A stretch of 64,000 nucleotides of DNA from Pseudomonas sp. MYb118 (GTDB lineage: Bacteria > Pseudomonadota > Gammaproteobacteria > Pseudomonadales > Pseudomonadaceae), in NCBI RefSeq assembly GCF_040947875.1, contig NZ_JBFRXN010000001.1:1-64000 (forward strand). The letters run 5' to 3'. A model generated the notes under the pieces. That model was not told where the DNA came from. It searched no databases and saw only the letters and a program-made list of their open reading frames with translations. This document shows positions 58-58,278 of the stretch, in pieces (position 1 is the stretch's first letter; every line of letters begins with the position of its first letter). The position numbers and the translations under genes are program-made.

Positions 58-1534
58 ATGTGGCGTGAAACCAAAATTCTGCTGATCGATGACGATAGCG
101 TCCGCCGCCGCGACCTGGCGGTGATCTTGAATTTTCTTGGCGAAGAAAATTTACCCTGCGGTAGCCATGACTGGCAGCAGGCTGTCGGCTCTTTGTCATC
201 AAGTCGTGAAGTGATCTGTGTCCTCATCGGGACGGTCAATGCTCCTGGCGCGCTTGGGGGCTTGCTAAAGCACACTCGCAACCTGGGATGAGTTCCTTCC
301 GGTTTTGTTAATGGGCGATAATTCTTCCATTGACCTGCCCGAAGACCAGCGCCGCCGTGTGCTTTCGTCCCTCGAGATGCCGCCCAGCTACAGCAAGCTG
401 CTCGATTCGCTGCACCGTGCCCAGGTCTATCGCGAGATGTACGACCAGGCCCGCGAGCGCGGTCGTCACCGTGAACCCAACCTGTTCCGCAGCCTTGTCG
501 GCACCAGCCGGGCGATTCAGCACGTGCGCCAGATGATGCAGCAAGTCGCCGACACCGATGCCAGCGTACTGATCCTCGGCGAGTCCGGGACCGGCAAGGA
601 AGTGGTCGCACGTAATCTGCATTACCACTCCAAGCGTCGCGACGCGCCATTCGTGCCAGTCAATTGCGGGGCGATCCCGGCAGAGCTGCTGGAAAGCGAA
701 CTGTTCGGCCATGAGAAGGGCGCCTTCACCGGGGCAATCACCAGCCGCGCCGGGCGTTTCGAGCTGGCCAACGGCGGCACGCTGTTCCTCGATGAAATCG
801 GCGACATGCCGTTGCCGATGCAGGTCAAGCTTTTGCGTGTGTTGCAGGAACGCACCTTCGAGCGCGTGGGCAGCAACAAGACCCAGAGCGTCGATGTGCG
901 CATCATTGCGGCGACCCACAAGAACCTCGAAAGCATGATCGAGGTGGGCTCCTTCCGCGAAGACCTGTATTACCGCCTGAACGTATTCCCGATCGAAATG
1001 GCGCCGCTGCGAGAGCGTGTGGAAGACATCCCGTTGCTGATGAACGAGTTGATCTCGCGCATGGAGCACGAGAAGCGTGGTTCGATCCGTTTCAATTCCG
1101 CGGCGATCATGTCGCTGTGCCGCCATGGCTGGCCGGGCAACGTCCGGGAGCTGGCCAACCTGGTCGAGCGCATGGCGATCATGCACCCGTACGGCGTGAT
1201 CGGCGTGGTCGAGCTGCCGAAGAAATTCCGCTACGTCGATGACGAAGACGAGCAGTTGGTCGACAGCCTGCGCAATGATCTGGAAGAGCGTGTGGCCATC
1301 AATGGTCATACCCCGGACTTCACCGCCAGCGCCATGCTGCCGCCTGAAGGCCTGGATCTGAAGGATTACCTGGGCGGCCTGGAACAAGGGCTGATCCAGC
1401 AGGCGCTGGACGACGCCAATGGCATCGTTGCGCGCGCGGCCGAGCGTCTGCGTATTCGTCGCACCACCCTGGTGGAGAAGATGCGCAAGTACGGCATGAG
1501 CCGTCGTGAAGGTGATGAACAGGCGGATGATTGA
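58..1534 (+). pseudogene. fleQ: fleQ, master flagellar regulator, disrupted by a one-base frameshift
   Basis: FleQ is the c-di-GMP-responsive AAA+ enhancer-binding protein at the top of the Pseudomonas flagellar cascade; it activates sigma-54 flagellar promoters and controls exopolysaccharide genes. The frame opened by ATG 58 gives the start of the FleQ receiver-like domain, then goes out of frame after Lys at 268-270 and stops at 289-291. Omitting the C at 271 gives a continuous 491-codon protein, the usual FleQ length. The second frame (usable starts TTG 305, ATG 311) carries the c-di-GMP-linked LFRS motif (residues 142-145 of the restored protein), Walker A GESGTGKE near 174, the GAFTGA sigma-54 contact loop and the C-terminal Fis-type HTH. 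A native inactivating mutation and a sequencing error are both possible. Identity is certain; functional state is not. Confidence 0.9.
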
Positions 1535-1545
1535 CGCCTGTTTTT
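1518..1545 (+). terminator. Rho-independent terminator at the end of fleQ
   Basis: An 8-bp inverted repeat AACAGGCG (1518-1525) / CGCCTGTT (1535-1542) encloses the fleQ stop codon and runs into a T tract. It would separate fleQ transcription from fleSR. Confidence 0.7.
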
Positions 1546-1575
1546 CAAGTCCTTCATTTTCGGGTGGTTTTTTTT

Positions 1576-1591
1576 AGGCACGGGTATTGCT
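1576..1591 (+). promoter_or_regulatory. sigma-54 promoter of fleSR
   Basis: AGGCACGGGTATTGCT matches the -24/-12 consensus TGGCAC-N5-TTGCW with one mismatch, GG (1577-1578) and GC (1589-1590) being 12 bases apart. It lies 53 bases before the fleS start. FleQ activation of fleSR through sigma-54 is established in P. aeruginosa. Confidence 0.8.
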
Positions 1592-1644
1592 AAGTCCCTC
1601 GCAACGTTCCGTTTCACTGACGGTCAGCCACGCGAGAGAGCACG

Positions 1645-2868
1645 ATGCCCCAAGCCGCCCAGATGTCTTCTGCCCCTGACACTTCGGGGCACCCGTCGTC
1701 CGTAGAGCAGGCGAGCCGGCAAGGCCTCGAGCAGGCCTTTGCGCTGTTCAATCAGATGTCCAGCCAATTGACTGACTCCTACAGCCTGCTGGAAGCCCGG
1801 GTCACCGAGCTCAAGGGTGAGCTGGCGGTCGTCAGTGCCCAGCGCATGCAGGAACTGGCGGAAAAAGAACGGCTTGCCAATCGCCTGCAAAACCTCCTCG
1901 ACCTGTTGCCCGGTGGCGTGATCGTCATCGACGCTCAAGGCATTGTGCGCGAAGCCAACCCGGCGGCCTGCGAACTGCTCGGCCTGCCCCTGGAAGGCGA
2001 GCTGTGGCGTCACGTGATTGCCCGCTGTTTCGCTCCGCGCGAAGACGACGGCCATGAAATCTCGCTCAAGGACGGTCGGCGCCTGTCGATCGCCACGCGC
2101 TCGCTGGACGCCGAGCCCGGCCAGTTGGTGCTGCTCAACGACCTGACCGAGACCCGCCACCTGCAAGATCAACTGGCGCGCCATGAGCGTCTGTCGTCCC
2201 TTGGACGGATGGTCGCCTCGCTGGCCCATCAAATCCGTACGCCGTTGTCCGCTGCGTTGCTGTACGCCAGTCATCTGACCGAGCAGGAACTGCCGGTCGA
2301 CACGCAGCAGCGCTTTGCCGGACGGCTGAAGGAGCGCCTGCACGAGTTGGAGCATCAGGTGCGCGACATGCTGGTGTTTGCGCGCGGTGAATTGCCGCTG
2401 ACCGATCGCGTCACGCCGAAGATGTTGTTGCAGTCGCTGCAATCGGCGGCCTCGACCCATGTCCAGGGCCTGCCGGTTCGTTGGCAGTGCGACAGCCATG
2501 CCGGCGAGGTGCTGTGTAATCGCGACACTCTGGTGGGGTCCATTCTCAACCTGATCGAGAACGCCATCCAGGCCGGAGCGGGTGACGTTCGCTTGAAAGT
2601 CCATCTCTACACCCGCGACAACAACCTGCGGGTCTCGGTCAGCGATAACGGCAGTGGCATTGATCAAAAGGTGCTGGCGCGTCTCGGCGAACCGTTTTTT
2701 ACCACCAAGGCCACCGGAACCGGTCTGGGCCTGACCGTGGTCAAGGCCGTGGCACGTGCACATCAGGGAGAGTTGCGGTTGCGCTCGCGACCCGGTCGAG
2801 GCACATGCGCGCAGGTCGTCCTGCCGCTGTTCACCGGTGAAAGGCTCAGCGCTCAGGGAGCGGAGTGA
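1645..2868 (+). CDS. fleS: Sensor histidine kinase FleS
   Basis: FleS phosphorylates FleR to switch on class III flagellar genes (MS ring, rod, export apparatus). The 407-residue protein has no clear membrane segment. A coiled-coil-like N-terminus (about 20-80) precedes a PAS domain (about 80-180), a HisKA domain with phosphoacceptor His195 in LAHQIRTPL, and an HATPase domain with N box around 300, G1 SDNGSG at 333-338 and G2 TGTGLGL. ATG 1645 follows a GAGAG ribosome site. It is co-transcribed with fleR, from which it is separated by five bases. Confidence 0.95.
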   Translation: MPQAAQMSSAPDTSGHPSSVEQASRQGLEQAFALFNQMSSQLTDSYSLLEARVTELKGELAVVSAQRMQELAEKERLANRLQNLLDLLPGGVIVIDAQGIVREANPAACELLGLPLEGELWRHVIARCFAPREDDGHEISLKDGRRLSIATRSLDAEPGQLVLLNDLTETRHLQDQLARHERLSSLGRMVASLAHQIRTPLSAALLYASHLTEQELPVDTQQRFAGRLKERLHELEHQVRDMLVFARGELPLTDRVTPKMLLQSLQSAASTHVQGLPVRWQCDSHAGEVLCNRDTLVGSILNLIENAIQAGAGDVRLKVHLYTRDNNLRVSVSDNGSGIDQKVLARLGEPFFTTKATGTGLGLTVVKAVARAHQGELRLRSRPGRGTCAQVVLPLFTGERLSAQGAE

Positions 2869-54603: not shown

Positions 54604-54701
54604 CGCTATCGCGGGCAAGCCCGCTCCCACACTGTTCAGGGGTATGCAGATGATCTGTGTACAGCATCAATCACTGTGGGAGCGGGCTTGCCCGCGATGG
54701 C
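54604..54701. repeat. REPIN flanking the RAYT gene (left)
   Basis: CGCTATCGCGGGCAAGCCCG and its inverse, ending at 54701, form a pair of the GGGC-stem REP type. The same type flanks the transposase on the other side. Confidence 0.92.
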
Positions 54702-54792: not shown

Positions 54793-55251
54793 ATGCCTGA
54801 TTTGCCTGCTTCACATCGCTTGCGAATGGGGCGGTATGCCGAACCCCACCGGGTCTACTTGTTAACCACCAATACAATTGATCGGGAGCCCATTTTTAAA
54901 GATGTCAGATTGGGCAGATTGGTCGTGCATCAATTTCGCCGGGCTCAGAATTTCGGGTGGGCGAATTCGCTGGCTTGGGTCGTCATGCCGGACCACTTCC
55001 ATTGGTTAGTCGAGTTGGACAATTGTTCACTTAGCAATTTGATGCGAAGAACCAAATCGTTGATTGCTCGAGAGGTGAACCTTGCCAGCAGTAGAGTCGG
55101 GCCGCTTTGGCAGCAGGGCTATCACGATCGCGCTTTGAGGCGAGAAGAGGATCTGGTGAAAATGGCGCGGTATGTTGTCGCCAATCCGTTGCGGGCTGGA
55201 TTGGTGGAGCGTCTTGGCGACTATCCGCTGTGGGATGCGATTTGGCTTTGA
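54793..55251 (+). CDS. REP-associated tyrosine transposase (RAYT)
   Basis: RAYTs are single-copy Y1/HUH enzymes thought to spread REPINs. The 152-residue protein has the HUH-type metal motif HFH (His68-Phe69-His70 in PDHFHWLVE) and the catalytic Tyr127 in MARYVVANPLRAGL. It is full length and flanked on each side by an inverted REP pair of one type, the usual arrangement. Confidence 0.93.
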   Translation: MPDLPASHRLRMGRYAEPHRVYLLTTNTIDREPIFKDVRLGRLVVHQFRRAQNFGWANSLAWVVMPDHFHWLVELDNCSLSNLMRRTKSLIAREVNLASSRVGPLWQQGYHDRALRREEDLVKMARYVVANPLRAGLVERLGDYPLWDAIWL

Positions 55252-55270: not shown

Positions 55271-55350
55271 CCCATCGCGGGCAAGCCCGCTCCCACAGGA
55301 TCTTTTGAGCTCACAAATCCATTGTGGGAGCGGGCTTGCCCGCGATAGGG
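55271..55350. repeat. REPIN flanking the RAYT gene (right)
   Basis: CCCATCGCGGGCAAGCCCGC and its inverse (to 55350) form a close pair of the GGGC-stem REP type. Confidence 0.92.
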
Positions 55351-57017: not shown

Positions 57018-57066
57018 ATGAAACACTGAACCAATGTGGGAGCAACTGTCTTACCCATACCGCTCA

Positions 57067-57996
<930 letters not shown>

Positions 57997-58003
57997 TTAC
58001 ACT

Positions 58004-58168
58004 CAGAAGTGAGAGTGCTCTGGCTTTGCCCACGCTTGTGATTCGAGTGGCGCTCGTCTAACTGTTCGGGCTTATGGGCCAGAGTGGAAAGGTGGATGGC
58101 AGCTCGGCTCCCCCACGTGCTTCAAGCACCGCGGACTCACAGCTTGCCATCCACCCCTCTCACCTCTG
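58004..58168 (-). ncRNA. Predicted IS110 bridge RNA
   Basis: Read on the minus strand, the region folds into three stems. A closing stem pairs 58157-58168 with 58004-58015 (12 bp, one G-U). The target loop is closed by an 11-bp stem GGUGGAUGGCA / UGCCAUCCACC (58145-58155 with 58091-58101) and has an inner hairpin at 58117-58129. The donor loop is closed by CUCUGGC / GCCAGAG (58078-58084 with 58018-58024). Guides: AGUCCGC (58131-58137) and GUGGGGG (58110-58116) fit the REP target; ACAGUU (58060-58065) and CACAAG (58035-58040) fit the element ends. Order (target loop then donor loop) matches known bridge RNAs. Confidence 0.8.
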
Positions 58169-58192
58169 ATTTTATTCCCTGATCAAGACACA

Positions 58193-58278
58193 AGCGGGCT
58201 TGCTCGCGAAAGCGGTGTGTCAGTCACCATCAAAGTCGACTGACACACCGCTTTCGCGAGCAAGCCCGCTCCCACAGG
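58193..58278. repeat. REPIN interrupted by the IS110 element
   Basis: AGCGGGCTTGCTCGCGAAAG at the left is the rest of a REP whose first bases (TGTGGGAG) lie at 57035-57042, on the other side of the element. The inverse partner ends at 58278 (CTCCCACAGG). Confidence 0.88.

Follow-up and report, generated by a model that had tools for sequence, protein, structure and literature searches.

Introduction

Elements of the IS110 family encode a bridge RNA with two loops, and this RNA, the covariation of IS110 guides with their targets and the targeting of REPs by IS621 have all been published (PMC11208160), together with a structure (PMC11208158), as far as the available parts of these papers describe them. 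For ISPa11 of P. aeruginosa, a member of the IS1111 group, the accessible text of PMC11187229 reports a seekRNA that pairs with both target strands and picks a Pseudomonas REP. The presence of ISPpu9, ISPpu10 and ISPa11 in REPs was described in 2006 (PMC1525189, available in part), and for ISPpu9 the available section of PMC8450116 gives a direct repeat AG (CT on the other strand) and a leader of 244 nt.

Bridge RNAs can be programmed in the laboratory, while the reprogramming of guides in nature is less clear. Here we describe an IS110-group element in 64,000 nucleotides of Pseudomonas sp. MYb118 (the whole stretch is called the window below). Very probably, insertion at one REP variant, with exchange at CT, is guided by a bridge RNA from the stretch that separates its left end from its transposase gene. 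At the level of sequence, this reading draws on the fold, on how and in which register the guides pair, on an insertion position that does not vary, on the covariation of guides with targets and on the choice of one REP variant.

Results

An IS110-group element within a REP

The element occupies positions 57043 to 58192 on the minus strand; its ends were set by comparing seven copies at seven places in the host genome, and it measures 1150 bp in six of these and 1149 bp in the other (L005). The transposase gene (57067 to 57984, minus strand; 305 amino acids plus stop codon) carries both IS110 Pfam domains, PF01548 and PF02371, and thus the DEDD RuvC-like and Tnp pair, and it scores above the cut-off of the NCBIfam model NF033542, 'IS110 family RNA-guided transposase'. 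A profile made from the transposases of 13 relatives matches the solved transposases of ISCro4 (3.4e-45) and IS621 (E 3.8e-43), and residues D8, E52, D94, D97 and S231, whose roles are taken from the available part of the IS621 work (PMC11208158), are invariant across 13 relatives and align with the ISCro4 chain. In the window copy 208 nt separate the left end from the start codon and 24 nt the stop codon from the right end, which is the IS110-group layout of a long noncoding stretch upstream and a short one downstream; the downstream stretch reaches about 80-170 nt in several relatives. Assignment to the IS1111 group, with its long noncoding stretch downstream, was rejected for the window copy on those 24 nt.

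On the minus strand, junction comparison places one copy of a CT core at 58193 to 58194 (left) and another at 57041 to 57042 (right), the flanks being AAGCCCG, the 3' half-stem of a REP, at 58195 to 58201 and CCCACA, the REP tail, at 57035 to 57040. These flanks bear out the target AAGCCCG-CT-CCCACA that an earlier sequence-only reading of this DNA had rebuilt on the element strand, with CT at 58194-58193 and 57042-57041. CT flanks both ends in 94/94 copies of the survey described below and so forms a shared dinucleotide core, a uniformity that is partly built in, since the end search patterns included a left-hand T and a right-hand CT; no complete copy was discarded for want of either. The copies in G018 and G363 (L027, L029 and their sisters) end in GACAGTTGG before CT, with one G more than the rest.

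All seven copies in the host genome share one REP position and one orientation; in seven different places the left junction reads AAGCCCGCT and the right one CTCCCACA. The check that the earlier reading had proposed on other copies therefore came out in its favour, CT standing at the crossover in all seven, and no copy at an unrelated site was found among the 94 copies from 31 genomes. The joined target AAGCCCGCTCCCACA is a palindromic repeat found intact 381 times in the 6.58-Mb genome (its reversed letters, as a control, not once), which agrees with the claim that the repeat is present in hundreds of copies. Across all genomes, 78 of 88 testable sites have an inverted half within one mismatch, compared with 7% of control CT sites. 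The possibility that the flanking letters are part of the element was rejected, the 15-mer being intact 381 times and the flanks differing in other hosts.

Some 2 kb from the element, at 54793-55251, lies a gene for a REP-associated tyrosine transposase (NF047646, 1.1e-44) flanked by target-type REP pairs (54617-54689 and 55283-55337). Enzymes of this kind are thought to spread REPs, according to the part of PMC8450116 that is available, and because such a gene lies nearby, framed by target-type REPs, the element may live on a repeat family that is maintained by another mobile gene.

A predicted bridge RNA and its donor loop

The leader upstream of the transposase gene is predicted to fold into two loops (z = -3.73), and an alignment of the RNA over 23 relatives gives a two-loop structure of 43 consensus pairs, 12 of which are altered on both sides with pairing kept in at least one sequence. 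The predicted bridge-type RNA, its extent taken from the alignment, runs from 58010 to 58162 (minus strand). Fold and alignment put the target-binding loop, with its closing stem and inner hairpin, at 58091 to 58155 on the same strand; this first loop consists of ten bases including the left guide, then the inner hairpin, then the right guide. Judged by complementarity, loop 1 would recognise the target and loop 2 the donor.

In the second loop (minus strand) the left donor guide ACAGUU (58060 to 58065) is identical to the element's right end, and the right donor guide CACAAG (58035 to 58040) complements the core plus the left end, CTTGTG. ACAGTT and ACAAG were present in this loop in 94/94 copies; the element ends were located by pattern, which partly builds in the uniformity of the ends and does not build in the presence of the donor guides. 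Over the 94 copies the donor half of the RNA is constant and the target half variable. A C follows both the right guide and the donor ACAAG in 94/94 copies; at target position -1, 81 copies have G and 13 have C. In IS621 the handshake guides occupy the corresponding positions (PMC11208158), which by analogy may favour REPs that end in G before CT.

Rfam family sX15 (RF02234, 'Xanthomonadaceae sRNA') matches the reverse complement of the bridge RNA end to end at 58008-58169 of the window (plus strand) with 51.9 bits (cut-off 55). Matches to sX15 were found in 12/16 element loci, five of them above the cut-off and all 12 opposite the transposase strand, and in 2/369 genomes of the class. The strongest (120 bits; G709, L132 1501-1662) lies just upstream of an IS110-type gene, and this sX15-bearing relative (L132, about 1400-1800, reverse strand) has the loop GATAACGCCT and the left flank GCTAACGCCT, which we take to resemble an integron attC end. 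A further Rfam match, to the nitrogen-regulated small RNA NrsZ (131 bits), lies at 764-979 of L018 in G218, some 300 bases from the left end of the element there. Probably sX15 is an antisense RNA of the IS110 bridge RNA, comparable to Asr9 of ISPpu9 in the portion of PMC8450116 available, or else a family defined on the wrong strand.

Target guides and their register

The left target guide, AGUCCG with a C opposite the core (58131 to 58137, minus strand), pairs with 58195-58200 and the core. The sequence-only reading had found AGUCCGC in the target loop and had paired it with AGCCCGC, and rightly so, these letters lying at 58137-58131 within a loop of about 58091-58155 and the U facing a bottom-strand G. 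It had also named GUGGGGG as the right guide, pairing with CTCCCAC through one G-T pair; the letters are indeed in the loop (58116-58110), but they do not form that guide. The right guide lies at 58108 to 58115 (minus strand), pairs with CTCCCACA and reads UGGGGGAG in this copy, the usual form being UGUGGGAG, a perfect Watson-Crick partner of CTCCCACA that also covers the core. The register proposed earlier is 2 nt off and pairs in 78% of cells over the 94 copies compared with 97% for the usual one, though in the window copy it still pairs at 7/7 positions with one wobble.

The target loop reads GUGUGGGAG in 70/94 copies, and in 5/7 in the host genome. The window copy and its identical sibling L007 (2/7 genomic copies) carry a U-to-G change at 58113, and the window copy pairs at 7/8 right positions in the usual register (58115-58108). 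The base concerned is U in 91/94 copies and A in one, where it fits that copy's own target; only the window copy and L007 have G. These two are identical over 1150 bp, differ from L001 at 24 positions and, despite the change, both lie at the standard REP position. Two target-loop guides do meet at CT as had been claimed, and by their letters both fit the REP variant that holds the element. Of the proposal that guide RNA explains why such elements choose REPs, the core idea stands; the guides would specify one REP variant, not REPs generally.

A scan of the 64-kb window with the guides of the window copy (CT core, six left pairs of six and at least seven right pairs of eight, wobbles counted as pairs) returned 10 sites, nine of them intact REPs, compared with a mean of 1.69 in Markov-1 sequences of the same length. 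REP forms beyond the counted k-mers were estimated from samples of one contig and not from whole genomes; in such a 400-kb sample of the host the main forms were AGCTCG-CTCCTAC (65), GGCTCG-CTCCCAC (40), AGCCCG-CTCCCAC (16) and AGCCCG-CTCCTAC (16). All seven copies lie in AGCCCG-CTCCCAC, which makes up 16/137 of these, and the chance of this is 3e-7 if the four forms are equal targets and 1.6e-4 if only the two CTCCCAC forms are considered. The left guide has two mismatches to GGCTCG and one to AGCTCG. With 7/7 copies in one form and these mismatches to two of the others, the choice speaks for the predicted guide and not for the REP hairpin as such, though the sites are strongly palindromic.

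Guides and targets across genomes

Relatives were found as matches at a set E-value in 26/398 genomes of the genus and 21/398 of the family. The survey covers 94 copies in which both ends are present and the loop can be read, from 31 genomes (the host of the window, 29 others of the genus and family, and P. laurylsulfatiphila), drawn from the best five or fewer candidates per genome, the total thus being at least 94. Three copies without a left end (L031, L033 and L047, incomplete) were left out, and the target set excludes distant IS110 elements (G472, G458, G401, G399, G338 and a second lineage in G187) and partial ones (G228, G689 and G474), whose ends differ or which run into the end of a contig; L032 (G264) and L014 (G227) were kept despite an N and a doubled right end. 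All 94 insertion sites are distinct, and 89 are fully readable, the left flank of the other five being cut by a contig end or an N before -6.

Over positions -6 to -1 the left guide forms 452 Watson-Crick and 46 wobble pairs in 552 cells (90%), and over eight positions the right guide forms 727 and 2 in 752 cells (97%), compared with at most 57% (left) and 78% (right) in registers shifted by 1 to 3. Per copy, the left guide pairs at 6/6 positions in 53 copies, five in 28, four in 4, three in 1 and two in 3 (n = 89), and the four sites with two or three pairs (G666 and one G684 copy) fit better with a 1-nt guide slip. The right guide pairs at 8/8 positions in 71 copies and at 7/8 in 23 (n = 94).

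Thirteen types of left guide were found. Guide AUUCG stands with target AATTCG (G018, five copies), GCCCC with GCCCC (G308, G607), AACCCG with AACCCG (G264), CGCCGG with CGCCGG (G684, 2/4 copies), GGUCCG with GGTCCG (G420, 2/3) and GGGCCG with GGGCCG (G494, 3/3); a further type is GGCCCG (G532). On the right side, GUAGGAG accompanies CTCCTAC (G363, G127, G420, G532, G494) and UUAGGAAG accompanies CTTCCTAC (G160). A slip of 1 nt is needed for one type (G127, G666) to fit, and six others have wobbles or mismatches at their commonest target. When the 13 guide types were permuted over the targets, each type being represented by its commonest target, the observed 71/78 pairs were reached in 0/200,000 permutations (permuted mean 56.9); the types are related by descent, so that this P is not a phylogenetic test. 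A chance match of guide and target was rejected on the window scan against Markov-1 sequences, the register scan and the permutation.

The REPs of the hosts vary along with the guides. Among 24 genomes counted, the 13-mer AGCCCGCTCCCAC occurs 391 times in the genome of the window, seven times in G308 and not in G018; AATTCGCTCCCAC occurs 134 times in G018, twice in G362 and in none of the other 22; and AGCCCCCTCCCAC occurs 1065 times in G308, 1126 in G187, 521 in G157, 343 in G164 and once in the genome of the window. In 16/17 genomes (those counted whose guides end in GUCCG, GCCCG or GCCCC), the final base of the guide matches whichever of two REP types is commoner, the exception being G164. 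Among 12 genomes, CGCCGGCTCCCAC was found 28 times in G684 and at most twice elsewhere, GGGCCGCTCCTAC 72 times in G494 and at most six times elsewhere, and RGTCCGCTCCTAC 118 times in G420 and at most seven times elsewhere. These counts suggest that guide and host REP type mostly change together among the relatives. That the target is always an abundant REP of the host was rejected, as the 14-mer target in G160 has one further exact match in its genome; no clear repeat was seen at this site in a 400-kb sample, and the neighbouring letters recur on both sides.

Discussion

How the element may choose its target, and other explanations

In the mechanism that we propose, a bridge RNA would be encoded between the left end of the element and the transposase gene. 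Its donor loop (ACAGUU, CACAAG) would recognise the joined element ends. Its target loop would recognise AGCCCG-CT-CCCACA through AGUCCG and the right guide, UGUGGGAG in its usual form; this target comprises the 3' half-stem of one REP variant together with the tail. The recombinase would exchange strands at CT. That the RNA is made, bound, held in a synaptic complex and directs strand exchange would follow by analogy with IS621. The mismatch in G164, the slip in G127 and G666, the six types with wobbles or mismatches and the mismatched right guide of the window copy count against this reading.

Direct recognition of the REP hairpin by the transposase protein, with the RNA match as a by-product such as a REP fragment captured in the leader, would suit the strongly palindromic targets (78/88 sites, 7% of control CT sites), and the available part of PMC1525189, from before the bridge-RNA work, ascribes target choice to transposases. 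We hold it to be highly improbable, however, as guides vary along with targets on a single protein scaffold that is conserved, and the element avoids the commoner and likewise palindromic forms GGCTCG-CTCCCAC and AGCTCG-CTCCTAC, both of which fit the guide worse. Shared descent alone, in which elements and REPs diverged together with no selection for fit, would agree with guide types that follow the transposase tree with the minimum of 12 changes, and the permutation test ignores the kinship of the types; but nothing would make two separate loci such as guide and REP change alike, and types that differ at several positions nevertheless fit (AUUCG with AATTCG, GGGCCG with GGGCCG), which makes this explanation very unlikely.

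For the window copy and L007, a doubtful though still plausible account is that they guide themselves poorly, owing to the U-to-G change in the right guide, and were moved by the RNA of sibling copies. G at 58113 is confined to these two among the 94, and because they are identical over 1150 bp and 24 bases away from L001, the changed form appears to have multiplied recently. Against help from siblings, 7/8 right pairs remain, as in 21 other copies, some 7/8 forms are found in several copies per genome (G362, G010), the register shifted by 2 nt pairs too, and gene conversion could have copied the changed form. The changed right guide may have spread through tolerance, sibling help or gene conversion.

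How guides may change in nature

We lean slightly towards the view that one bridge-RNA lineage tracks the diverging REPs of its hosts, tolerance of wobbles and mismatches admitting a new variant and the guide mutating afterwards. A transposase tree with one row for each of the 31 genomes requires 12 changes of guide type, which is the minimum. In G164 the old guide GCCCG is found with 3/3 copies at AGCCCC, a mismatch at -1. New-type REPs outnumber old-type ones in this host by 343 to 18. G164 branches beside four lineages with the new guide GCCCC with weak support (84/59); together with G121 and G174, in both of which guide and target are of the old type, these five make up a well-supported group of seven (100/99). 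The mismatched G164 may be an evolutionary intermediate. In G307 and G288, with guide AGCCCG, 5/7 fully readable sites are AACCCG, reached through a G-T wobble, and G264, the sister of G307 (99/95), bears the exact guide AACCCG. In the 400-kb sample of G307, AACCCG precedes CTCCCAC 18 times, AGGCCG 14 and AGCCCG 10, and over the whole sample AGGCCG-CTCCTAC (37) is commoner than AACCCG before CTCCCAC. Both cases fit a target that changes first and a guide that follows, though two cases are few and the guide may instead have changed first.

The family thus combines a single recombinase scaffold with 13 types of left guide, each found next to its target, and includes possible intermediates, which makes the order of target-first or guide-first change directly testable. 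It also supplies natural guide-target pairs for a repeat with hundreds of copies per genome. Among the open-access literature searched, no paper was found that tracks guides along species-specific REPs; the supplement of PMC11208160, outside that scope, may hold such pairs.

Comparison with known systems

Like ISPpu9 and ISPpu10 of P. putida, also of the IS110 family, the element uses one REP position and has a 2-bp direct repeat, a comparison by description only and with the part of PMC1525189 that is available. With ISPa11 it shares a Pseudomonas REP chosen through RNA, reported for ISPa11 in the accessible text of PMC11187229 and here read from complementarity; the RNA of ISPa11 lies downstream of the gene, whereas that of the window element lies upstream, with only 24 nt after the stop codon. 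The likeness to IS621, an IS110-group element of E. coli, extends to an RNA upstream of the gene with two loops of two guides each (PMC11208160, PMC11208158), to the CT core and REP target (PMC11208160), as far as the available parts of these papers describe them, and to the transposase profile (E 3.8e-43). Unlike IS621 it has another REP and other guide letters, and many natural guide types are found on one lineage, here from sequence comparison. We regard the element as a well-supported further member of the bridge-RNA IS110 elements, with unusually clear data on natural reprogramming; the mechanism is already known.
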